A stretch of 64,000 nucleotides of DNA, taken from assembly GCF_013752535.1 (NCBI RefSeq), contig NZ_CP058348.1, forward strand, positions 2,108,001 to 2,172,000, read 5' to 3'. Shown one piece after another: positions 4,901 through 57,751 of the stretch; position 1 is the first letter of the stretch, and each line of letters opens with the position of its first letter. Below the pieces are notes generated by a model, which saw only the letters and a list, made by a program, of their open reading frames with translations, did not search any database and was not told the origin of the DNA. The translations under genes and the position numbers were made by a program. Source of the stretch: Bdellovibrio sp. KM01. Lineage in GTDB: Bacteria; Bdellovibrionota; Bdellovibrionia; Bdellovibrionales; Bdellovibrionaceae.

Positions 4901-5195
4901 CGCCGCCACCGCCATAGATTTGCACATAGCCCGCACCTGCTTCGTTCAAAAGATCACGCATGTATTTGAAGTATTCCATGTGACCGCCCTGGTAAGAGCT
5001 AATACACACGCCTTGCGCGCCTTCCTGCAAAACGGCTTTCACCACATCACTGACGGATCTATTGTGACCCAGGTGGATCACTTCCGCGCCCATATCTTGT
5101 AAAATACGGCGCATGATATTGATGCTGGCGTCGTGACCGTCGAACAATGCGGCAGCCGTGACAATTCTAACTGGATGCTTTGGAGTATATGCCAT
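1956..5195 (-). CDS. icmF: Fused isobutyryl-CoA mutase (IcmF)
   Basis: 1079 residues, the usual IcmF length. Order: B12-binding domain (about 1-140) with the cobalamin motif D19-G-H21 in FDGHDAS; a MeaI-type G-protein chaperone with Walker A GTGGAGKSS at about 204-212; then the large acyl-CoA mutase barrel. IcmF enzymes interconvert isobutyryl- and n-butyryl-CoA with adenosylcobalamin, some also pivalyl- or isovaleryl-CoA, and the built-in GTPase loads and protects the cofactor. It is the last gene of an operon after hbd and an enoyl-CoA hydratase. This context suits entry of branched acyl-CoA from valine or lipid into beta-oxidation. A TAAGG ribosome site lies about 9 bp before the start. 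Its stop lies inside a palindromic repeat. Confidence 0.95.
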   Translation of the reverse strand: MAYTPKHPVRIVTAAALFDGHDASINIMRRILQDMGAEVIHLGHNRSVSDVVKAVLQEGAQGVCISSYQGGHMEYFKYMRDLLNEAGAGYVQIYGGGGGVIVYDEKKELEAYGISQIFHPDDGRRLGLEGMIEMIVKGCDFDLLEKQKEFKTKKNIFAGDTVPSVELGVALTAIENGNKDVSLSSYGLENFKAKQPPLVLGITGTGGAGKSSLIDELVQRYLNAYPDKKIAVVCVDPSKRKTGGSLLGDRIRMNSLSRTKVFMRSVASRGSGREIASSLPEILKFVRQLDFDFIIAETSGIGQGNMAITEVSDMSMYVMTSDFGAQSQLEKIDMIDFADLIAVNKADRRGALDALRDVSKQYKRSRKIFDEKVQVPVFLTQASQFNDGGVNKLFFKIADLLEEKQKGRWVVDAAYKNNILSAEEHGIISPDRQNYLAEIVGTVHKYKKRTEELAEVASKLGGLQKLAPLLGTPAETVQKVQSQLESDFTAEELDALKNYDQLVERYSGDELVFQVRDKEIRQKLVRESLSGTKIRKVVVPKMKDWGDRFRYLKLENVPGEFPYTGGVFPLKRADEDPKRMFAGEGTPERTNRRFHYLTKGETAHRLSTAFDSVTLYGQDPDQRPDIFGKVGESGVSICTLDDMKKLFAGFDLINPNTSVSMTINGPAPMILAFYFNTAIDQQVEKKEKELGRKVTPEEYNDIAIWTLQQVRGTVQADILKEDQGQNTCIFSINFALKMMGDIAEYFVKQKIRNFYSVSISGYHIAEAGANPISQLAFTLSNGFTFVEYYLSRGLKVDDFAPNLSFFFSNGLDPEYSVLGRVARRIWAVAMRDLYKANDRSQKLKYHIQTSGRSLHAQEIDFNDIRTTLQALLAIYDNCNSLHTNAYDEAITTPTEESVRRAMAIQMIINREFGMTMNENPMQGSYFMDELTDLVEEAVLNEFKKINERGGVLGAMETQYQRSKIQEESLYYERLKHDGTLPIIGVNTFIDPKTMAADYVPPKIELARASYEEKNQQLDNVHKYQKDHESEGELALKKLKDTVLNGGNIFAALMNAAKYCSLYQMTTALYEVGGQYRRNL

Positions 5196-5215
5196 GAAAA
5201 AACCTTATGTAACAT

Positions 5216-8789: not shown

Positions 8790-9545
8790 ATGAAACAATT
8801 GTTTGTCCTCATACTTTCTGCTCTCCTTGCGAGTTCCGCCTTAGCCAAAGGTAAGAGTCCGATCGTATTTGGAGTCAACATGGACTATGCGATGCCGCTG
8901 GTTAAGTTGAAAGATGACAATGGAACTTCCGTACTCATCGGCGGAATTCTGAAAGACCTGGGAGAAGCCCTGGCAAAAGAAATGGACCTAGATCTGAAGT
9001 GGTATCTGGTTCCCAAAAGAAGAGTGGCGCCAAGCCTCTCCTCGGGAAAAATCGATATCCTGTGCCACCTTTCAGAAGTTTGGCAACCCGCGATAAAAAA
9101 CGATGTTTGGTGGTCGAACAAACTTTACCGCAGCTCGAATGTGCTGGTTTACATAAGGGAACAACCGATCACTTCCATCAAAGAAATCTATGGTGAACAC
9201 GTCGGCGTGGTATTGAACTTCATTTACAAGGGGCTCGAAGACTCTTTCGAATCCGGGGCCCTGAAACGCGAAGATGGCCCTAATAACATCTCCAACATTA
9301 AAAAGCTCCTTAAAGGCCGCATCAACTACATCGTGATGTCGAACCTGGAATATGCATATTACAATAATCTCTATCCTCCGCTGCGCTCCGTGGACCTCGC
9401 GATGGACGAAGTGATCACAAAATGTGCTGTGTCTAAAAAATCAAAACTCAAAATAGAAGACGTGAACAAAGCCATCGCAAAAATCACCCGCAATGGCACC
9501 TTGAGCAAAATCCTGAGCTCCTACTACTTCAAAAACCTAGAGTAG
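8790..9545 (+). CDS. Periplasmic solute-binding-like protein (SBP family 3 fold)
   Basis: 251 residues from the ATG at 8790, where an upstream in-frame GTG would add only two. Signal peptide MKQLFVLILSALLASSALA, then a two-lobe pattern typical of family 3 solute-binding proteins: GGILKDLGEALAKEMDLDLKWYLVPKRRVAPSLSSGKIDILC. No permease or ATPase genes are adjacent. In Bdellovibrio such orphan proteins are numerous and may be sensors or scavengers rather than transporter parts. The substrate cannot be read from sequence. Confidence 0.75.
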   Translation: MKQLFVLILSALLASSALAKGKSPIVFGVNMDYAMPLVKLKDDNGTSVLIGGILKDLGEALAKEMDLDLKWYLVPKRRVAPSLSSGKIDILCHLSEVWQPAIKNDVWWSNKLYRSSNVLVYIREQPITSIKEIYGEHVGVVLNFIYKGLEDSFESGALKREDGPNNISNIKKLLKGRINYIVMSNLEYAYYNNLYPPLRSVDLAMDEVITKCAVSKKSKLKIEDVNKAIAKITRNGTLSKILSSYYFKNLE

Positions 9546-9675
9546 TAGTAATTGTAGTAGCAACAACAGCGGCCGCTTCTCTAATATTCCTAAAATGCAT
9601 ATTAACTTATAGTTAATTCACTACTCTGCGAGCATTCTTCAGGATAATTCCTTATGCATAAAAAAAGGAATAACC

Positions 9676-10149
9676 ATGAAAACATTGATCCTCTCCCTAG
9701 CATTGCTTATTTCCACAAACGCTTTCGCAGCCGCAGACTTCTCAAAAAAACTAGAACTCTGTGCCCTCCAAACTTCCGACGACCCAGAAGCCTACGAAAA
9801 AGCCTTCTCTGAAACCTTCATCTATGTAAACAAAGCTACGAGCCTAACGGATGAACAAGTAAGAATGATCAACGCCCACTTGATCCAAGTAGAATACACA
9901 ACAGAACCCCTAACATTCGCAGAAATTAAGGCCCTATTCACAACAGGCGAACAACAATACAACGACCTCTATTTAGTAACAATGAAATCTAAAACAACAG
10001 GCGCCATCTTCTACGAAGCCAAATCCTACCCAGGCGACAACCCCTACGGAGTCGTGTTCACAGCAACAGGCGACCTAGCAGCCTACAACCAAGACGACAA
10101 CATCACCCTAGTAGAAGGCCAAGCAACATACGCCTGCCCTTGGAAATAA
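9676..10149 (+). CDS. Small secreted protein of unknown function
   Basis: 157 residues with a clear signal peptide (MKTLILSLALLISTNAFA, cleavage near AFA-AA). Two cysteines remain in the mature part (LCAL and TYACPWK), so a disulfide is possible. The ribosome site is AAGGAA, 5 bp before the ATG. Codon choice leans to C- and A-ending codons, unlike neighbours. No family is recognised. It ends at a strong terminator. Confidence 0.7.
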   Translation: MKTLILSLALLISTNAFAAADFSKKLELCALQTSDDPEAYEKAFSETFIYVNKATSLTDEQVRMINAHLIQVEYTTEPLTFAEIKALFTTGEQQYNDLYLVTMKSKTTGAIFYEAKSYPGDNPYGVVFTATGDLAAYNQDDNITLVEGQATYACPWK

Positions 10150-10177
10150 TCAGAAAAATCTGAAACAAAAGTGAAGT

Positions 10178-10211
10178 AAAAAGCCCCGGCACCCCGGGGC
10201 TTTTTATTTTT
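10178..10211 (+). terminator. Rho-independent terminator after the small secreted protein gene
   Basis: GCCCCGG / CCGGGGC (10183-10189, 10194-10200) with a 4-nt loop, flanked by A- and T-runs that extend the stem to 12 bp, then TTTTTATTTTT. Confidence 0.92.
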
Positions 10212-10242
10212 GATCTCCACCACGACCCAATCGAACGAAGAA

Positions 10243-10426
10243 GTTTGAACCCGCCACCGCAGCTGACCTGGGCACAGCGGGCCGTGCCTGCCACGAAGCG
10301 ACCTCCGTGGGCGCCTGGATGGCGCGCACCCGCCGAAGGCGGGCCACGGTTGAGCCACGACGGCGTGTCGCGAAGAGGCAGGCACGGCACGATGGGACCA
10401 GGGCAGATGCGGGGGCGGATTCAAAC
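10243..10426 (+). ncRNA. Candidate structured RNA or repeat: 184-bp GC-rich inverted repeat with internal hairpins
   Basis: The arms 10243-10302 and 10367-10426 are gap-free 60-nt inverted repeats with 48 of 60 positions paired. Seven of the eight outer mismatches are A-G or G-A when read on the plus strand. Between the arms, CCGTGG and CCACGG (10304-10309, 10344-10349) pair around two hairpins, GCGCC-TGGAT-GGCGC (10311-10325) and CCCGCC-GAA-GGCGGG (10329-10343). A third hairpin, CACG-ACGG-CGTG, follows (about 357-368 past 10000). GC content is far above its surroundings. It lies after a terminator and about 130 bp before the subtilase start. It could be a small RNA, a cis-regulatory leader or a mobile repeat; the strand is inferred from the mismatches. 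Confidence 0.55.
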
Positions 10427-10557
10427 CCTCTTAGCTCCCCGAACCAGGGCCAAAAAAGCAGCAAATCCCCCGGCACGATTATTGGAATACCCCAGAACGG
10501 AAATACTATTTTTTTGATATCAGTGTCTTTATGGCACTTGGACGTCGAGGAGTTGGA

Positions 10558-23713: not shown

Positions 23714-25144
23714 ATGGCTCAAACAGCAGAGAAAACATTTTTTGGACATCCCCGTGCCTTGTTCACACTTTTCTTCACGGAAATGTGGGAACGATTCTCG
23801 TTTTACGGGATGAGAGCGCTTCTAGTGCTCTATATGGCTCAATACCTTTTTATTGAGGCAGACAAAGGAAAAGATGTTTGGGGATACGGATTTTTGAAAT
23901 CTGGAATTGAAAGCACTTTTGGCCCGGTTTCAGCGCAGGCTTTGTCTTCCCATATTTATGGGCTGTATATGGGCCTTGTGTATTTTACACCATTTTTTGG
24001 TGGAATCATCGCTGACCGCTACTGGGGCAAGCGCCGCTCGGTGTACGTCGGTGGGATCTTGATGGCCATCGGTCACTTTTTGATGGCGATCGAAAGCATG
24101 TTCTTCTTGGCCTTGCTGTTTATTATCGCGGGCAACGGGTTCTTTAAACCTAATATTTCTACTCAAGTCGGAGAGCTTTACCCTGCGGGCGACAAGCGCC
24201 GTGATGGTGCTTTCACATTGTTCTACATGGGTATCAACTTGGGTGCGTTCTTCTCTCCATTGGTTTGCGGAACCTTGGGACAAAAAGTTGGCTGGCACTG
24301 GGGCTTTGGTGCTGCTGGCATCGGGATGCTTGCTGGTTTGGTGATCTATCACTTCGGCGGCAAACACTTGCCATCATCTGAGCACAAAGTTTCTGTGAAA
24401 GAAGTTGAAGCCGCGGCGAAAAAACCACTGACTAAAAATGAGTGGAAGCGTACGTGGGCATTGACGTTTATGTGTGCGATCACGATTTTCTTCTGGGGTG
24501 TTTACGAACAACAAGGCAATACTTTGCAGTTGTTTGCAGATCAATCCACTGATTGGAATTTCTTTGGTTGGGAAATGCCTTCCACTTGGTACCAATCATT
24601 CAACCCCTTCATCATCTTTATCTTTGCACCGATCTTAGATCGTGCTTGGGCATGGCAATCTCGCAAAGGCAAAGAAAACACAACGGCTATGAAGATGGCG
24701 ATTGGTTGCTTCCTAGGAACTGCAGCGTTGATCGTGATGTTCATGGCGGCACAATCTGTGGGTGACGGCAAAGGCACGGCCCTTTGGTTGCTAGGCTCAA
24801 CGTTCATGCTGACTATCGGTGAGCTTTACCTTTCTCCGATTGGTCTATCATTAGTAACGAAAGTTTCTCCAACGAAGATCGTTTCTATGATGATGGGTGT
24901 TTGGTTCTTGGCTTCATTCTTCGGAAACACTGTTTCTGGTTGGATTGGCGCTCTTTACGACAAAATGCCTAAGGATAACTTCTTCCTTTTACTTGCGGCC
25001 CTTGGCTTTGTTCCCGGCGTGATGTTCTTTATCTGCAACAAGGTTCTGACGAACTCTTTAAATGCTGATGATGAAGGTCCAGAACCGAAACACACTGGTA
25101 GATCAAGCTCAGGCATCGGACCTCATGCCGAAGTGACTGTATAA
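23714..25144 (+). CDS. Proton-coupled oligopeptide transporter (POT/PTR2 family)
   Basis: 476 residues with about 14 hydrophobic segments. The family signature FFTEMWERFSFYGMRALLVLYM (about 20-40) carries the ExxERFxYY-type proton and substrate motif. FTPFFGGIIADRYWGKRRSV and TLFYMGINLGAFFSPLVCGTLG are the PTR2 loops. It imports di- and tripeptides with protons across the inner membrane. A ribosome site GAGAGG lies 4-5 bp before the ATG. It is divergent from the metzincin lipoprotein gene, and a predator that digests prey protein would need such uptake; the link is inference. Confidence 0.93.
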   Translation: MAQTAEKTFFGHPRALFTLFFTEMWERFSFYGMRALLVLYMAQYLFIEADKGKDVWGYGFLKSGIESTFGPVSAQALSSHIYGLYMGLVYFTPFFGGIIADRYWGKRRSVYVGGILMAIGHFLMAIESMFFLALLFIIAGNGFFKPNISTQVGELYPAGDKRRDGAFTLFYMGINLGAFFSPLVCGTLGQKVGWHWGFGAAGIGMLAGLVIYHFGGKHLPSSEHKVSVKEVEAAAKKPLTKNEWKRTWALTFMCAITIFFWGVYEQQGNTLQLFADQSTDWNFFGWEMPSTWYQSFNPFIIFIFAPILDRAWAWQSRKGKENTTAMKMAIGCFLGTAALIVMFMAAQSVGDGKGTALWLLGSTFMLTIGELYLSPIGLSLVTKVSPTKIVSMMMGVWFLASFFGNTVSGWIGALYDKMPKDNFFLLLAALGFVPGVMFFICNKVLTNSLNADDEGPEPKHTGRSSSGIGPHAEVTV

Positions 25145-37300: not shown

Positions 37301-37821
37301 GCAGTACCCCGATTTAATTTTTCTTTCTCTAAAGAGTTAGCAAGCTCCATACCCAATTAAGATCTATTCCAAACCAGCACACCCATCACCAGATTCAGAT
37401 TTCGGACAATTTTCATTGCACACCAACAAGTTTCACCTCCGCTTCGGTAACTGATTGCATCATTTTACCCCGACTAGGTTCCGCCGATGACATATTCACG
37501 GCTTCGATTTTCCGCCGGTGCTTCAACCAGCAACCGAGAACTATAAGTCAACCGACGTGTCTGACATTTCTCTTCTCAAAAACGCCACATTCGCAGGCAG
37601 AATCCCTTCTCGCGAGCGAAAAGCGGCATGCGTCATCGCATTGCTACCCGCGCCAATCACCCCACTTATTGACCCCCTAAGCAAAGGTTTTATAGAGTAA
37701 CTGCACTTATTTCGCGAGAGAGCTAAACGCTGAAAAGCTTTAGAAAATTTCTAAAAACTCCCCCACGAAAAAGGAGCATGCTCCGGCCCAATCGGAGCGC
37801 AGACTGCGAAAGGAAATTTCC
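37301..37821. other. 520-bp intergenic region before malic enzyme
   Basis: No frame with a ribosome site. The last 50 bp contain two overlapping inverted repeats, GGAG-CATG-CTCC (37773-37784) and GCTCCG-GCCCAAT-CGGAGC (37780-37798), which cannot form together. They lie about 24 bp before the TTG start. Confidence 0.5.
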
Positions 37822-40194
37822 TTGGAAAAAGAATTGAACAAGAACAGCAAGAATTCAGACAAGCCAGCAACCGACGCGAAACACGCGACCAACAACTTCG
37901 ACCAAGAAGCATTGGAATATCACAGCCGCGGCAAACCCGGTAAAATCGAAGTCATCTCTTCAAAACCTTGCGTGTCTGAGAAAGACCTTTCACTTGCGTA
38001 CTCCCCAGGGGTCGCGGCTCCTTGCAAAGTTATCGCTAAGGATTCTTCCAAAGTGTACGACTATACTGCCAAAGGAAACTTGGTGGGAGTTATCTCTAAC
38101 GGAACAGCAGTTCTGGGATTGGGCAACATCGGCCCGCACGCTTCCAAACCCGTGATGGAAGGTAAAGGAATTCTTTTCAAACAATTCGCTGGTATCGATG
38201 TATTCGACATCGAAGTGGATGCGAACGACGTGGACACGTTCTGTAACGCGATCAAAACATTGGAGCCAACATTCGGTGGTATCAATCTGGAAGACATCAA
38301 AGCTCCAGAATGTTTTGAAATCGAAGAGCGTCTGAAAAAAGAAATGAAGATCCCCGTATTCCACGATGATCAGCATGGAACTGCGATCGTATCGGGAGCA
38401 GCGTTGCTGAACGCCGTTTCTATCACCAACAGAAAAATGGAAAACGTACGTATCGTCGTAAACGGTGCGGGCGCCTCTGCGAATTCTTGCGCTAAAATCT
38501 TTATCTCGCTGGGTGCACGCCGTGAAAATATCATCATGTGTGACTCTCAAGGTGTGATCTACAAAGGTCGTACGGCAGGGATGAATAAATACAAAGAGTA
38601 CTTCGCAGCCGAAACTGAAGTGCGCACTCTCAGCCAAGCTTTGCAGGGTGCTGACGTATTCGTAGGTCTTTCTGTCGCCGGAGCCCTGACTCCTGAGATG
38701 CTTAAAGACATGGCGAAAGATCCAATCATCTTTGCGATGGCAAATCCAGAACCAGAAATCACGCCGGACAAGGCACGCGCTGCTCGTCCCGATGCCATCA
38801 TTGCGACGGGACGCTCGGATTACCCAAATCAAGTGAATAACGTTTTGGGCTTCCCGTCTATTTTCCGTGGAGCATTGGATACGCGTTCAACTCAGATCAA
38901 TGAAGAAATGAAACTCGCAGCCGTTCACGCTTTGGCAAAACTTGCACGCGAAGAAGTACCAGACCGCGTGTCTGCAACTTACGGTGGTAAAACATTTAAG
39001 TTCGGTCGCGAATACCTAATCCCGAAACCATTCGACACCCGTGTTCTTCTTTGGGTGGCGCCGGAGGTGGCGAAAGCTGCTATCAAATCAGGTGTCGCAA
39101 CAAGAAAGATCGAAGACTGGGATCACTACCGCGAAACTTTGGAAGCCCTGCAAGGTCCGTCGAAAGTTTTCATCCGCTCCGCAATCAATCGCGTTCACCA
39201 AAACGCGACAGCGATGGGTGGCGAACTTCCGCGCATCGTATTCCCTGAAGGCACAAGCACAAAGGTTCTTAAAGCTCTTTCCACTTTGGTTGAAGAAAAA
39301 ATCTGCCAACCAATTTTGTTAGGTTACCCAGACCGCGTGAAAGAAAAAATCCAGGCCTTGGATATCCCGGCATTGAATGACGTTCCAGTTATTCATCCGG
39401 CGACTTATCCAAAATTCTTTACGTACGTTGAAAAGCTGTACTCGCTAAGGCAGCGTAAAGGCATCAACATGCGTGAAGCTGAGCGCTTGATGGCTGATCC
39501 GAATTACTTTGCAGCGATGATGGTTACCATGGGCGATGCTGATGGAGTGGTGAATGGTGCTTCTGTGAATTACGCAGACGCTGTAAAACCAATCTTGCAG
39601 ACTGTGGGGGTTTACCAAAACGGCATCCCAGCGGGTTTGAACTTTATCTTGCTTGAAGACAAATTCCTGGTACTTGCAGATACGACTGTGAACTTCAACC
39701 CAACGGCCGAGCAATGCGCGCAAATCGCAATGCAGGCTGCGAAAGTTGTTGAGTACTTTGGTATTGAACCGAAGGTCGCGATGCTTTCATACTCAAACTT
39801 CAGCGGCGCCGAAGGCACTCCATGCAAAATGAAAACAGCGGCTCAGATTGTTAAGAAAAATCGCCCCGGCCTGATGGTTGATGGTGATATGCAAGCGGAC
39901 ACAGCTGTAAATCCAGAGATCATGGAACGTTTGTTCCCGTTCTCTGATCTTAAAGGTGGCGCAAACATTTTGATCTTCCCTAATTTGGAGTCATCCAACA
40001 TCGCTTATAAACTGATCCAGCAAGTGGGCAAAGTGGAAGTGATCGGACCATTCTTGACGGGGGTTCGCAGATCTTGCAACGTTTTGCAAAGAACGACGAC
40101 AGTGGACGGTATCGTGAATTCAGTTGTATTCACGGCACTGGAAGCGCAATTCATCAAAGATGTTTTGAAGTCCCGCGAAGTAAAAAAACAGTAA
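37822..40194 (+). CDS. maeB: NADP-dependent malic enzyme with phosphotransacetylase-like domain
   Basis: 790 residues from TTG at 37822 (AAAGGA about 7 bp upstream); no ATG fits the family start. The malic enzyme domain (about 30-450) has LAYSPGVAAPC, the VFHDDQHGTAIVSGAALLNA metal and substrate segment, and a nucleotide motif near VVNGAGASANSCAKI. The C-terminal phosphotransacetylase-like domain (about 460-790) is usual in MaeB and lacks known catalytic activity, acting in acetyl-CoA regulation. It converts malate to pyruvate and CO2, giving NADPH. An N-terminal extension of about 20 residues rich in Asn and Lys is unlike E. coli. It ends at a terminator. Confidence 0.94.
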   Translation: MEKELNKNSKNSDKPATDAKHATNNFDQEALEYHSRGKPGKIEVISSKPCVSEKDLSLAYSPGVAAPCKVIAKDSSKVYDYTAKGNLVGVISNGTAVLGLGNIGPHASKPVMEGKGILFKQFAGIDVFDIEVDANDVDTFCNAIKTLEPTFGGINLEDIKAPECFEIEERLKKEMKIPVFHDDQHGTAIVSGAALLNAVSITNRKMENVRIVVNGAGASANSCAKIFISLGARRENIIMCDSQGVIYKGRTAGMNKYKEYFAAETEVRTLSQALQGADVFVGLSVAGALTPEMLKDMAKDPIIFAMANPEPEITPDKARAARPDAIIATGRSDYPNQVNNVLGFPSIFRGALDTRSTQINEEMKLAAVHALAKLAREEVPDRVSATYGGKTFKFGREYLIPKPFDTRVLLWVAPEVAKAAIKSGVATRKIEDWDHYRETLEALQGPSKVFIRSAINRVHQNATAMGGELPRIVFPEGTSTKVLKALSTLVEEKICQPILLGYPDRVKEKIQALDIPALNDVPVIHPATYPKFFTYVEKLYSLRQRKGINMREAERLMADPNYFAAMMVTMGDADGVVNGASVNYADAVKPILQTVGVYQNGIPAGLNFILLEDKFLVLADTTVNFNPTAEQCAQIAMQAAKVVEYFGIEPKVAMLSYSNFSGAEGTPCKMKTAAQIVKKNRPGLMVDGDMQADTAVNPEIMERLFPFSDLKGGANILIFPNLESSNIAYKLIQQVGKVEVIGPFLTGVRRSCNVLQRTTTVDGIVNSVVFTALEAQFIKDVLKSREVKKQ

Positions 40195-40346: not shown

Positions 40347-40532
40347 ATGAGCGGTCCGGAAAACATTCAGGTTAAAAAAATTATCGACGCAGTTCCCGCA
40401 ATGGCCACAGGCAATCCCTTAGAGTATGGGTATAAAGAAATCAACTCGCGCAGCTTTGAAAGCAGCCTGACTACTCTGGTGAATCATTTTAAAAATAAAA
40501 CTCCCAAGACAAAGCCCATCAAGAAAACTTAA
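40347..40532 (+). CDS. Small basic protein of unknown function
   Basis: 61 residues. A strong ribosome site (GAGAGGGG, about 6 bp) precedes the ATG. The C-terminal third is lysine-rich (FKNKTPKTKPIKKT), and there is no signal or membrane segment. It stands between the maeB terminator and the end of the convergent glucan synthase. No family is recognised. Confidence 0.5.
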   Translation: MSGPENIQVKKIIDAVPAMATGNPLEYGYKEINSRSFESSLTTLVNHFKNKTPKTKPIKKT

Positions 40533-40581
40533 AATCAATTTTTTTCGAAACAATAAAGCCACAACTCCCTAAAGACTCCCA

Positions 40582-43500
40582 CTAAGGATGAGAGTCTTTA
40601 AGAGCCTGTTCCTTTTCTGGGGCTTCATCTTTAAACTCGACAACGATCTCCTGCGTGCCGCCCACGTCCTTCAATGGAATTCGCTTTTCAGTCAAACGTC
40701 CCTTTTTCGAAATCTGAACCTTAATGACATAGATGGTACTTTTAAATCTGTACATAATCTCAAAGCCAAACCAGTCCTCAGGCACACAAGGACAAATTAC
40801 CATCTCACCATTTTCGATCGTAAAACCCAGGACGGATTCCAATCCCGCACGGTAAAACCAGCTGGCTGAGCCTGTGTACCAACTCCAACCACCTCGCCCC
40901 ACATGCGGTTCAACGGCATAAACATCGGCCGCAATCACATAGGGTTCGATTTTATATTTCTGCATCCCCGCCCGCGTGCGACCGTGATGAATCGGATTGA
41001 TAATATTATAAAGCTCCAGAACCTTTTCACGTTCCTGAAGTTTTGCAAAGGCCATAACGACCCAGATTGCCGCATGTGTGTACTGACCACCATTCTCGCG
41101 CACCCCAGGCACATAGCCTTTGATGTAACCCGGATCCAAGTTGGTCTTATCAAAAGGCGGCATCAAAAGTTTAATCAGCCCTTTTTCCTTCACGATCAAG
41201 TTTTCCTCAACCTTACTCATCGAAAGCCTTTGTCGTTCGGGATTTCCCACTCCCGATAAAACCGACCAGGACTGGGACAAGGAATCAATTCGACATTCCT
41301 GCCCCCAGGCAGATCCCAGCGGAGTGCCATCGTCAAAGTAAGCTCGCCGATACCATTCCCCATCCCAGGCATTGTTTTCTAAGGCCTCTTTAAGTTTATC
41401 CATGTGCTCTTTATATCGAGTCGTGTGCTCGCTATCACAGAACGGCAGGAAGTCTTCCAACACCCGGTGCAGAAACCAACCCATCCACACACTTTCGCCC
41501 TTGCCCTTTTCCCCGATGCGATTCATCCCATCATTCCAGTCTCCGGAACCAATCAATGGCAAACCGTGCTCTCCGACTCGCAGGGAATGCTCGAGTGTAC
41601 GAATGCAATGATTATGTAACGTCGACTTTTGATCACTGAGCTTCGGTTGCGTGTAAGAGTCTTCTTGTTCGGGAGTCAGTAACGGCGCCTCGATAAACGG
41701 AACGTGTTCTTCCAGAATCGAATGATCCCCACTGATGCGAATATAGTGAGCCACCACATAAGGAAGCCACAACAAATCATCCGAGAAATGCGTCCGCACA
41801 CCACGTCCTGTTGGAGGATGCCACCAGTGTTGCACATCGCCCTCGGGGAACTGGCGAGCCGCCGCACGCAAAATATGAGCGCGCGCGATTTCCGGAGTGG
41901 AATAGACAAAGGCCATACAATCCTGCAGCTGATCGCGGAAACCATAAGCACCGCCCGATTGATAAAAGGCCGAACGCGCCCACATACGACACACCAAAGA
42001 CTGATACAAAGACCAATGATTCACCATCAAATCCAATGACGGCTCGGGAGTGGAAACCTGGATCGCGCCCAAATGATGCATCCACATGTTTTGCACATCT
42101 TTAAAGGCCTTGTCGACATTTTCAAAATCAATATATTTTTCAGAAAGTGCAAATGCATCCGCTTTGTTCGCGGCCTGCCCCAGCACGATCACAATTTCAA
42201 TTTCCTCTTCGTCACGAATAAAATAACTCGCATGAAGTGCCGCGCATGGATCCTGACCGATACCCGCATAACCACTGAGCCCACGACGTTTCAAGGCTTC
42301 AGGCGAGGCATAGCTATGATTTCGTCCCAAAAATTCTTTGCGATCAGAAGAGTACGATTGAACTTCCGAACTGATTCTAAAGAAAGAAATCCTTTCGGCG
42401 AACTCATGGTTGTAAGCATTCTTGGCGTACAAGACTTTATCGTCGTCCACCTCACACAAAATATATGGCGCCGATTTTTCGCGTAAGTTTCCCAAAACCC
42501 ATTCAACATAGGCCCAGAAAGACAATCGGCGATTGCGCCCCGAAACGTTTTTCACTTTCAAGCGCGAAATCTTAACCGAATCATCTGGAGGCACAAACAT
42601 CATCAGACTGTGCTCCATCCCGTAAGCATTATGCTCAAAGACGGTGTAACCCTGACCATGACGGATGATGTATTGATCGCGCCCACGAATCGGCAAAGGT
42701 GTTGGCGTCCATAACTCCCCCGTATCATCATCACGGATATAGATAATTTCTCCCGGAGGATCTGAAACCGGATCATTCGACCAAGGTGTCAGGCGATTTT
42801 CCCGACTGTTCACAGACCAGGTAAAACCAGAACCCGATTCACTGACCTGGAATCCAAAATCATTGCCGTTCGCAATCACATTAATCCACGGAGCGGGAGG
42901 CCACTGATCTCCGGTGAGCGAAATAACATATTCGCGCCCGTCCGAAGAGAAACCACCCAGTCCGTTGAAGTACTGCAGATTTTTAGGCGTCACGCTCTTA
43001 GTTTCGTAAGATGAACGCGTATTTTTGGGAGTAAAGCTTTCCGCATACTTAATCGGCAAAACTTTACGCGACACTTGTTCTTTAAAAGTTCCCGCATCAC
43101 TGGAGATCACGACACGAGCCATGGCCTGAATCAGAGCGCGATCGGCCTCCTGCATATTATCCAAACGCAGACTGAAGATCCCACCGGGCTTATTCAACCA
43201 ATCCTGAAGTCCAGCATAACGAATCTGCCACAAAACTTCATCCTGCAGTTCTTGAAGGTACGTTGACTTGGAATCATTCATGATCACCAAATCATACGGC
43301 AAACCTTTTAATCGCAAGTATTCATGCCCGCGTAAAAGTTTGCGCACCAGTCCCATATCCTTTTTATCACCGATCATAACGGCTACAATAGGCACATCCC
43401 CGCTGATACCATAGGGCCACAGACTTGCTTGTTCACGGGTGTGCACCGCTAACAAGTGCGCAGGTTGTCGCATCGACGGATCCGAAAACAGCAAGCGCTC

Positions 43501-46500
43501 TGCCAAACGTTGGAAGGAGTATGCCGACTCCGCATCCATTCCCAAGTGACGAAGATCAATGCGCGATTTCGTCCAGGCAAGTTTCATCTCGCGCTCAAAT
43601 GTATGTGGGTCGTGATAACGATCCACCATTTGCAACATTTCATCGCGAGTCGCCGCATAACCTGTTTTAAAAATCACCTTACGAATGCCCGCAGGCGGAA
43701 TTCGAATCTTTACACGCAGACTTAAAATCGGATCTAAAACAGAACCAGAACTGTTCGTAAGAGTACTCCCCGTTTTTAAAGCCGCCGGGTTCGTCACGTC
43801 GCGACCCCGACCGATAAATCGAGAGCGATCTGATTCATACTCCACATCCCCATCAAATTCCGCATCAGACACGACTCCATGCAGGCCGTATATCTCCCTC
43901 TGCTCAGCGGAGCGTGGACGACGCTTCACGACCAGACACTGTTTTTGATCCAGGTACTCGGTTTGTAAAAACAAATTACTAAAACTTGGATGAGCCTGAT
44001 CTGCAGCCATGGTCGCCAGTACTGGCTCCATATAACTGGTCAGTTCAATAATTTTTTCTTCGGTCGACGTATTCGTCAAAGTCACCTGACGAAGTTCCAA
44101 ATTATCTTCGGGCGCTACAATAATTTGCGTGGAAGTTTTCACATCCATGTCCTGACGCAAGAACTCGACCTTATCTTCTGTAAAGACTGCTTTGTAAGAA
44201 TCAGGCTTACGAATATACGGTTGCAACGTCGCCGACCACGCTTGGTTCATACCAACATCGCGAACGTAAATATACTGACCCCAGTCATCCTGAGTCGAGT
44301 CTTCGCGCCATCGCGTGATCGCAATCTTACCACACTTGGAATATCCAGATCCCGCCGACGACAGAACCAAAGAGTAGTCTCCATTGGACAGAATCTGCAC
44401 CCGGGGACTGTGATGAGGGGCTTCATCATAAACCCTCACAAAGGATTTCATCAAAGAATCCCCGGCACTCTCCCACTCGATCTCAGCTGCTTTTGGAGCT
44501 GTCAGTGTCACATGTTCTGGCACGCGCTCTTGCAACAGAACTTGAGCCGCGCGAACTCTGGCGTCACTGTGGAAACGGTTTTGCATGACTTCCGCGTTTA
44601 AAATATTATCAATCGCGATCAAACTCATGCCCTGATGATGGGCCATATAAGATTTTACCAAAGAGTATTTCTGCTCGGGAGCCAAGCGTTCTGGCGTGTA
44701 GTCGATCGCTTCGATAAAACCAAATTCGGTTAAAATATCCGGAGTCTGCATATCTTGTAGATTCTGAGTTGCAACCACAGGATCCACCAAAGCCGCCAGG
44801 AAACTTGAATAAGGAGAAACCACGAGATCATGCCCTAAGCCCCTCTTTAAACCCAATCCTGGAATCCCAAAGGGACCATACTGATAGTTAAAATTCAAAT
44901 CACGGGCATTATAACCGGCTTCAGAAATTCCCCAAGGCACATTCAACTTTTTACCGTAACTAATCTGACGATCTACCACCGCAAGCAATGTTTCACCAAT
45001 CAGGGTTTTTTCAAAGTTCTTCATGACTAAATGAGGCATCAAGTATTCAAACATCGAAGCGGACCAGGACACCAGGGCGCGCTTACCTTCAACCGGTACA
45101 AGTTGTCGCCCCAAACGGAACCAGTGCTTTGCTGGTACATCTCGTTTTGCAATAGCAACAAAGCTTGCCAAGCGACACTCTGACGCCAAGAGGTCATAAT
45201 ACGAATTATCATGACGATTTTCACTGACATTGAAACCAATCGAAAACACCTCACGGTCCCGCTCAATCAGAAAGCCAAACTCCATTTCGGTGAAATAGTG
45301 TTCACAAGTGTCCCCAATATTTTGCAAATCCTGAACGAGTTCCCGCAAGTTCTGGGAAATCTTGGCACAGGAATCACGGAACTTGATAATCTCGGCCGAT
45401 AGTTCTTTGTCTGGAATTGCAGTAAGTTCCGTAGTGAACTGGAAGTAAGACTGAATCATATCCTGCACAGGCTGATTCAGATCCAATTCGTTATAAGACG
45501 CAATTTCTGCCAAGCGCGTTTTCGCAGTGGAACTTAAAGTCTGCGGAGCAATGAACAAATCAGTATCTTTCTTAAGATCTGCAATCAGGGTATTCAAAGC
45601 ATTGGTCCAACCACGAAGCTTTGAATAGTAGCGAACACCATGCTCAATTTCCAGGGCTTCCAGACTGTCACGGAAGTCTTCGACAGAAACCTGCACGGCA
45701 CGAATAAGCCCCAGCCACTCAGACATTTTTTCTGGAGGTTTTTCAGCCAGGATTTCCCGCGTGCTGCGAATCTGTTCAATCAAATGCGTGGCACTAAGCG
45801 CCCCGGTCTCCTGGCGTTGAAGTTGAAGCTTTTTTACTTCTTCTTCCATAAATTTAAGATTGGAGTTCAGTGCATGCAGGGAGTTCAATGAAAACAGCGG
45901 TGAACGCGTGAACTCTTCCACACCTTGCTTGATAACCAGCAAGTATCCCGCAAGATTCCCACTATCCACCGTCGAAACGTATTGAGGATACAGGGGATTT
46001 AAATTCGTCGTATCATACCAATTCAAGAAATGACCGCGATAGCGTTCCATGCGATTTAATGTTTGAAATAAAAGGCGCAGTCTTTCTGTGGCTCCGCGCA
46101 AAGAAATAAATCCAAAATCCTGTGCTGAAAAAATAGCCAGTCCATACAAACCAATGTTCGTCGGCGACGTACGATGCGCAACAATTTGTTCGGGATCTTC
46201 CTGAACATTATCCGGAGGCAGCCAGTTGTCTGTAGGACCCACAAAAGTTTCAAAGAAATACCAAATCCGGCGCGCAACTTCGAACAGAAATTCGCGATCC
46301 GCCGTCGTCAGCTCTTCACGCTTTTTTTCAAGGCGCTGCTGTGTAAACTCAGAGACCCACGGATAAATCGCCCAAAGAAGTAAAAACGGAATCGCCACGA
46401 CCATCACCGATGGATTCCAGCGAATGATCACGGCCGCAAAAATGACTCCCAGAATTGTCTCGACGCCAGCAGTACTTTTCCAATAGGCCGTCTTCATGTC

Positions 46501-56646: not shown

Positions 56647-57102
56647 TTACGGAAACAACTGCTTCGCCGTGACCTTGTAAAAGTCTTTCGGCTGCTCGTT
56701 AGGAATCCCTTGAGCCACGTCCAAATGGTCGTGTTCGACATTCATGATTTTCATATTCGACGGATACATGGCTCCCGCCATGGTGTAATAGATATTCACG
56801 AACTGAAACGTACCATCCGAGCCTTTACCGACGAAAACAAAAATGTTTTTAAAAGACGTTTTTTCCGCCAGATAAAAAATCGGAGAAACAATCTTTGTCG
56901 AAGACACATCCTCAAGCTTTTTCAAAAGATCTTCCCAGCCATTCACCATCGGTTTAACGGCCCACGGGAAAGCATTGTCACCGGATGCACTTAAAACTTC
57001 CACCCCAACAAAGTTTATTCTAGAAAAATCCGCCTGGGATGCTGGCTGAGCCCACACCGCCCCTACGAACAGCATTGATAATACAAACGCGGTGATTTTC
57101 AT
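56647..57102 (-). CDS. Small secreted protein of unknown function
   Basis: 151 residues from the ATG at 57102 (GGGGAG about 5 bp before). Signal peptide MKITAFVLSMLFVGAVWA. The mature part has no cysteines and shows alternating strands and helices (FKNIFVFVGKGSDGTFQFVNIYYTMAG). No family is recognised. It starts one base after the RDD gene's stop and so belongs to the cca-RDD operon. It ends 2 bp from the convergent HD-GYP-like gene. Confidence 0.7.
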   Translation of the reverse strand: MKITAFVLSMLFVGAVWAQPASQADFSRINFVGVEVLSASGDNAFPWAVKPMVNGWEDLLKKLEDVSSTKIVSPIFYLAEKTSFKNIFVFVGKGSDGTFQFVNIYYTMAGAMYPSNMKIMNVEHDHLDVAQGIPNEQPKDFYKVTAKQLFP

Positions 57103-57103
57103 C

Positions 57104-57751
57104 TTACTCCCCTTCATCATCCATATCGAAATCTAACTGCATGTCATCCATTCCACCCACGACCAAAAGATCACGCAGATCTGCTTTGCCCTCTTGCCAG
57201 TTGATTTCATTTAAAATCCCCGCTGCATAGTGCAGGCCTTCGTAACTATAGGATAAAACCAGAAAGAATCCCAACACCCAACGAATTCCGGCCCGAGTGC
57301 TGCGGGGTTGAAATTGCACGACGCGAGTCTCAGCAACCCAGTCAGACAAATGCGTTCGATCGTAACGAAAGAACGCCAGGGCAAAGATCGCCCAGGAGAA
57401 AAAGAAACTTAAACGACTGGTCAAGGGACGCAAAAGACATTGCGTGTAATCCAGTTCTTCGTGGGGACTATGGGCCGGAACGACTTTAAGTCCCATAATC
57501 CATTTTCCAGGAGTTGCCGAAATTAACATCAAGGATGCCGCTTCATACAAAGCGGGAGTCAAAAACAACATCAAAAGCTGGAACAGATTGAACTGTACGT
57601 CGGCATCTGTGAACCACACCGTATAAAAGGCTTTATAGAAAGGCGAATAGCAGATCGCAAGAAACACCTGATCGATCGTGACGGCCAAGAGCCTTTTCCA
57701 AGTGCTCGGCACATAAATGTCTGCGGTGTTTTCGGTCGCCTTAGTCATCAT
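57104..57751 (-). CDS. RDD-family membrane protein
   Basis: 215 residues. RDD signature residues: WKRLLAVTIDQVFLAICY (Arg and Asp), SATPGKWIMGLKVV and DRTHLSDWVAETRVVQ. About four membrane segments. RDD proteins are of uncertain role, with some linked to ion exchange. Its start is 9 bp after the cca stop, and its ribosome site overlaps that region, so expression is coupled. The acidic C-terminus (MQLDFDMDDEGE) is notable. Confidence 0.87.
   Translation of the reverse strand: MMTKATENTADIYVPSTWKRLLAVTIDQVFLAICYSPFYKAFYTVWFTDADVQFNLFQLLMLFLTPALYEAASLMLISATPGKWIMGLKVVPAHSPHEELDYTQCLLRPLTSRLSFFFSWAIFALAFFRYDRTHLSDWVAETRVVQFQPRSTRAGIRWVLGFFLVLSYSYEGLHYAAGILNEINWQEGKADLRDLLVVGGMDDMQLDFDMDDEGE

Follow-up and report, generated by a model that had tools for sequence, protein, structure and literature searches.

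A genus-wide family of strand-specific hairpins in Bdellovibrio with a one-sided, A+C-rich and faster-changing tract: candidate directional local mutators

Integron attC sites and single-strand origins function as a folded single DNA strand, the arms of which may vary in sequence. REP/BIME elements with RAYT transposases are dispersed, intergenic, imperfect palindromes recognized on one strand. Diversity-generating retroelements (DGRs) join a structured element to one-directional, local diversification of the adjoining DNA; in somatic hypermutation and in mitochondrial replication gradients strand-biased mutation decays over ~1 kb or along the replicating strand. Template switching at quasi-palindromes alters the two arms of a hairpin in a single event, with their complementarity preserved (PMC8794818). 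The element studied here, located in a 64-kb window (the whole stretch of DNA analyzed), resembles these systems in the respects named and belongs to a family that fits no known family. The open-access papers searched describe neither this family nor bacterial one-sided mutation tracts that go with an element, which is not proof of absence.

A first-pass annotation of the window had reported two gapless 60-nt arms with 12 mismatches, and the inverted-repeat alignment bears this out exactly (10243-10302 and 10367-10426, 80% complementary). Read from the outside inward, the mismatches are CA, AG, GA, AG, GA, AG, GA, GA, AA, GA, AA and AG, thus A-G or G-A accounts for seven of the outer eight, with a tendency to alternate, as it had also stated. 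The plus strand folds at -116.8 kcal/mol (z -8.5; minus strand z -8.8), with none of 200 shuffles as good; the at least three interior hairpins of that annotation correspond to P4, P5 and P6 in the fold, placed within two nested junctions and enclosed by a long P1, an internal loop and P2. In P1, 43 of the 52 arm positions are Watson-Crick and 7 are G-A. The parts of the element are:

10243-10294, plus strand: 5′ arm (P1), inverted repeat whose partner is 10375-10426; sequence copy-specific.
10298-10371, plus strand: conserved core of five helices, from the 91-copy alignment; the covariance-model match covers 10291-10379.
10298-10302, plus strand: P2 5′ strand GCGAC, partner GTCGC at 10367-10371, from the fold; helix 1, covaries.
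10305-10310, plus strand: P3 5′ strand CCGTGG, partner 10344-10349, from the fold; helix 2, covaries.
10311-10325, plus strand: P4 hairpin GCGCC-TGGAT-GGCGC, loop pattern NNGAY, from the fold; helix 3.
10329-10343, plus strand: P5 hairpin CCCGCC-GAA-GGCGGG, from the fold; helix 4, covaries; loop GNA/GNRA in most copies.
10354-10364, plus strand: P6 hairpin GCC-ACGAC-GGC, loop pattern as in P4, from the fold; helix 5, covaries.
10375-10426, plus strand: 3′ arm (P1), inverted repeat with the 5′ arm.

The element does lie, as had been noted, between a terminator and a protease gene ~130 bp on: a hairpin resembling an intrinsic terminator is found at 10174-10209, and the subtilase frame opens at 10531, its likelier start being ATG 10558, where a lipoprotein signal begins, 132 bp past the element. 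That annotation could name no known RNA family, and neither could Rfam, none of whose families reached its gathering score in the 64-kb window, while low-threshold matches forced onto the element scored far under gathering.

A unique element tied to the subtilase gene is not supported: the hairpin is one of 31 copies in the same genome (G000). A DNA search of this genome gave ~17 further sites with convincing scores, and a covariance model built on 29 cores then detected those 31 copies and 32, 22, 16, 14 and 14 in five relatives. The covariance-model search of Bdellovibrionota genomes that had been proposed as a check did reveal a family with compensatory changes: in 291 genomes of the phylum the confident matches are nearly all in one genus, and a handful are in two further genera of the same family. 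This genus, probably Bdellovibrio, includes B. bacteriovorus HD100 (G006), with ~14 copies. Weak matches in G162, from another family, have no footprint of the kind described below and may be false; the core pattern had no match in the viral contigs scanned and four single matches, in unrelated genomes, in a set of GTDB contigs from which near relatives of the window were excluded.

The copies are always intergenic. Among ~91 counted, 32 lie between convergent and 9 between divergent genes, and those between tandem genes (30 sense, 20 antisense) follow no clear orientation rule; hit coordinates and strands, tallied with the origin assumed near coordinate 0, showed no bias of orientation with replichore. 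Almost all copies examined are at the same locus in G000 and G012 (~90% identical), and about half of 20 regions fetched from G022 match G000 copies. Most copies occupy loci shared between species, and the family is of old descent, passed on mainly by vertical inheritance; on the evidence of sequence, the window element is one copy of these dispersed, vertically transmitted, strand-specific hairpins. Moreover, closely spaced copies (≤~1 kb; 1.4 kb in G166) are always in the minus-then-plus order, i.e. divergent, in ~17 or more pairs with no other order, such as 713802(-)/714115(+) and 2556553(-)/2557001(+) in G000; similar pairs occur in G001, G002, G005, G006, G015, G017, G018, G019, G022, G023 and G166. 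This fixed order puts the 5′ sides face to face, which supports a functional polarity. When the spacers of such pairs were compared, sequence was held in common only between orthologous loci.

Two loci deserve separate mention. At one orthologous locus (L005, G000 2681423; L154, G022 616165) the core has opposite orientations relative to the flanking genes, by an inversion within the palindrome or by replacement. In the G012 orthologue of L003 (L053, ~5143-5207) the core contains an inserted GC-rich stretch of ~60 nt that itself forms hairpins.

The alignment of 91 copies of the core (~75 nt, five helices) has 98.2% of its cells paired, and 20 of the 24 pairs have changes on both sides; covariation as high was seen in 0 of 500 shuffles, and slid controls came nowhere near it either. 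Flips from G-C to C-G are common. In the arms (~59 distinct pairs, read on the plus strand) there are 182 G-A versus 9 C-T mismatches, 28 A-A versus 6 T-T and 67 G-U versus 24 A-C, a bias with p ~5e-43 and 7e-6, values valid only if all cells are independent. This purine-mismatch bias across the family indicates that the plus strand is the one kept foldable.

The main result, and an unexpected one, is that the DNA on the two sides of the copies is different. Across 112 copies the A+C content is 0.614 at -200 and falls smoothly to ~0.50 by 1.2-1.4 kb on the 5′ side, whereas it is flat (0.49-0.52) through the first 4 kb on the 3′ side; at -200 bp the 5′ plus strand is A 0.33, C 0.29, G 0.17 and T 0.21. 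In the window this footprint and the gene inside it are:

9301-10242, plus strand: A+C-rich footprint of the window copy, on the 5′ side only, in which 500-bp segments reach 0.662.
9676-10149, plus strand: gene of a 157-aa secreted protein inside the footprint, third-position A+C 0.848.

The segment 9701-10200 (0.662) is the highest of all 500-bp segments in the 64 kb, and over flanks of 600 bp the copy has 0.652 on its 5′ and 0.527 on its 3′ side. Footprints are equal whether the upstream gene runs in the same or the opposite direction (0.613, 0.617), no replichore effect is seen (0.605, 0.603, on the assumption, which the negative GC skew of the window fits, that the origin is at coordinate 0), and third codon positions hold the signal (0.69 and 0.67 upstream versus 0.50-0.52 in downstream genes). 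In G005 and G018, genomes hardly used in finding the footprint, the 5′ side has 0.589 versus 0.497 and is the higher one in 16 of 16 copies (p 3e-5), and across copies the footprint is stronger with better-paired arms (rho 0.41, p 5e-6), both p-values being too small because they assume independence and the copies and genomes are related. Some copies have no footprint (L006 and L121 of G000, ~0.51), and those of HD100 have a modest one (0.52-0.62 over 600 bp). Elsewhere in the window, a mirrored tract at 23801-24400 (A+C 0.406, plus strand G+T-rich) has no recognized element and could mark a lost or different minus-strand one; A+C-rich tracts (~0.59-0.60) in which no core was detected are located at 37401-38000, 40401-40900, 44801-45300 and 56801-57400.

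Orthologous genes with and without the element permit a direct comparison. The gene at 9676-10149 has third-position A+C of 0.848 in G000 and 0.79 in G012, which both carry the element; the 14 genomes that lack it average 0.513 +/- 0.031. Among these 14, G022 has the same gene pair and terminator around an empty site, at which no clear duplication is visible by eye; arms in the family are largely copy-specific. For ddl the values are 0.835 and 0.815 with the element versus 0.504 +/- 0.039 in 22 genomes without, and for gpx, a gene oriented against the element, they are 0.68-0.81 versus 0.42 +/- 0.04 in 20 genomes. For ybaK they are 0.83 and 0.80 with the element, the exception being G022, where the core is undetected, apparent arm remnants are present and the value is 0.77. 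Judged from these sequence comparisons, the one-sided tract goes with having the element at a locus, irrespective of gene direction or replichore. Between G000 and G012, divergence on the 5′ side declines from 0.116 beside the element to ~0.08 at 1-1.2 kb and is flat near 0.073 on the 3′ side. The footprint is well supported: ~1 kb 5′ of the copies evolves faster, toward A and C, with an effect that decays with distance, and the 3′ side does not.

The arms themselves also change. Over long stretches the orthologous arms of G000 and G012 are often dissimilar, yet each is still self-complementary (L005/L061; L014/L078), and the DNA nearby is far more alike than the arms. Independent point mutations do not readily produce such paired rewriting; template switching, the fold-back self-copying of a nascent strand, can, and it is a documented route to paired changes of this type (PMC8794818). 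In the outer flanks of L008, L010, L012 and L016 there are extra A/T-rich inverted repeats, of ~20 bp or more, outside the arms, which look as if the palindrome had grown outward by fold-back copying of the flank.

Our best reading, which we consider an even call, is that the structured strand starts, or sets a limit to, short DNA synthesis that is error-prone and runs in one direction. The folded plus strand would be the start (or end) point of recurrent short synthesis, primed in the simplest version either by the 3′ arm of the hairpin itself while it pairs with the 5′ arm or by a core-bound protein; synthesis would proceed leftward with the plus strand as template, at low fidelity and fading over several hundred bases, and its product would then be returned into the chromosome. 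Fold-back copying would rewrite both arms together, so that they could change fast and yet stay complementary; the 292 double versus 12 single changes in core cells also favour this reading. The element may be selfish, a by-product or a useful local mutator. With about equal weight for and against, we propose that the hairpins act genus-wide as directional local mutators of ~1 kb on their 5′ side, diversifying the neighbouring gene with no canonical reverse transcriptase and by undescribed machinery. The enzyme and the form of nucleic acid behind the footprint are matters on which we infer. Neither the presence of RVT_1 nor that of Y1 transposases tracks the copies.

The same polarity, gradient and strand preference would also suit cDNA synthesis from a structured 3′ end, in which a plus-strand transcript ends at the element, reverse transcription begins at the hairpin, and the resulting error-prone cDNA, which covers the kilobase upstream, recombines into the chromosome. 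We rate this version, also favoured by the excess of G-U over A-C mismatches, as unlikely; the family would then be a retroelement that lacks an enzyme of its own and works in the manner of a DGR. RVT_1 is absent from G000 and most element-bearing genomes, although a distant reverse transcriptase could be missed, and an association with a canonical reverse transcriptase was rejected on this count; in addition, the changes are not adenine-specific and the arms have no promoter or terminator signature around them. Sigma-70 promoter scores show no excess in the 5′ flanks of the copies, and a terminator-like T-run past the 3′ arm is absent as a rule, with TTTT in 4% of copies. Core cells hold 292 double changes versus 12 one-sided ones (G-U type), whereas an RNA evolving via G-U intermediates is expected to give many more than 12. 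The list of attack-phase sRNAs of HD100 (PMC3627812) includes no transcript from the plus strand of a copy; the c-di-GMP-I riboswitch of this genome was located at the merRNA position given in that paper. The functional plus-strand RNA of the first-pass annotation is thus upheld as to the strand (G-A 182 vs C-T 9), but RNA is not established, because of the few one-sided core changes and the lack of a T-run, of promoter enrichment and of a listed plus-strand sRNA. Folded single-stranded DNA suits the data at least as well as RNA, both being possible. One listed sRNA, APsRNA6 (HD100 1,338,787-1,339,441, plus; PMC3627812), spans a copy on the antisense strand, so transcription can traverse the element in that direction. 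APsRNA6 (L177 1288-1942) reads as an mRNA for a protein of ~90 aa (L177 1323-1592) plus a long 3′ part; this part runs antisense through one copy, and its end lies at another, which is truncated and in plus orientation.

The spectrum of substitutions bears on whether damage, rather than synthesis from the hairpin, is at work. For 378 changes polarized with G022, a diverged outgroup, mostly at coding sites and thus partly filtered by protein selection, rates per 1000 sites on the 5′ and 3′ sides were 68.7 and 32.0 for T>C, 28.6 and 7.2 for C>A, 22.6 and 9.1 for A>C, 15.5 and 8.4 for T>A, 50.2 and 34.5 for C>T, and 29.8 and 32.2 for G>A; C and A predominate among the bases gained on the plus strand. 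If a nick or break at the element exposed up to 1 kb of single-stranded minus strand on its 5′ side, chemical damage could give the bias, and both the strand asymmetry with its gradient, which recall the gradients that go with single-strand exposure in mitochondrial DNA (PMC8565317, PMC3269015), and the fact that T>C is the largest excess fit such an origin. It is nevertheless improbable in our estimation, as G>A, expected from deamination of minus-strand cytosines, is not raised and transversions are (C>A 4-fold, A>C 2.5-fold). Excess T>C, C>A and A>C without G>A argues against plain cytosine deamination of either strand, which as a sole cause is unsupported, and for miscopying, from which such a spectrum arises more easily.

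That selection keeps the 5′ side A+C-rich, i.e. unstructured and G-poor, for instance as a Rho-loading or RNA-binding tract, would agree with plus-strand C exceeding G over hundreds of bases; it is very improbable, since selection for composition would slow change and the tract diverges faster, not slower, than the control side, besides lying at synonymous positions in genes of both directions and decaying smoothly over 1 kb. A defunct mobile repeat of an ordinary type (MITE or REP-like) inserted beside DNA that was already A+C-rich, so that the footprint is older than the element, would account for a multi-copy intergenic element in a genome with Y1 transposases, but we give this hardly any credence, as element-free orthologues are not A+C-rich in 14-22 genomes, closest outgroups included, Y1 genes do not track the element (G013 has 13 elements and 0 Y1, G116 has 11 Y1 and 0 elements), and most copies are at the same loci across species, which indicates that insertion is rare. 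An association with Y1/RAYT was rejected, and no confident covariance-model match was found near the eight Y1 loci sampled. G000 has twelve Y1 (RAYT-like) transposase matches. Inverted repeats of 29 nt on both sides of one of them, L194, include GGTGCCTGCC, a string similar to CGTGCCTGCC from the arm of the window element.

If the hairpins do direct synthesis as we propose, they would matter beyond this genus, as bacterial mutation rate is mostly treated as genome-wide or as set by replication and transcription, and an element fixing place, side and strand would represent a new targeted mutagenesis. The family also offers a natural system for the simultaneous rewriting of both arms of long hairpins, and it carries a warning that codon bias near such elements may stem from mutation acting locally, not from selection or gene transfer. 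The proposed mutator is testable in HD100 with its ~14 copies.

Compared with the described systems, DGRs mutate adenines and depend both on a linked reverse transcriptase and on paired template and variable repeats, whereas RVT_1 is missing from the window's genome and most other carriers, and the excess is in T>C, C>A and A>C. Somatic hypermutation and the mitochondrial gradients need transcription or a replication origin, but the hairpin tract depends on neither gene direction nor replichore. Template switching at quasi-palindromes is known as a sporadic mutation, with no conserved dispersed core or one-sided 1-kb tract known for it. REP/BIME elements, with which the genome's Y1 genes are a further likeness, differ in that the element here is much longer, has a multi-helix core and copy-specific arms, and is not linked to those genes. 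Finally, attC sites conserve the base of the stem and vary further up, while this hairpin family conserves the tip, that is, its core.
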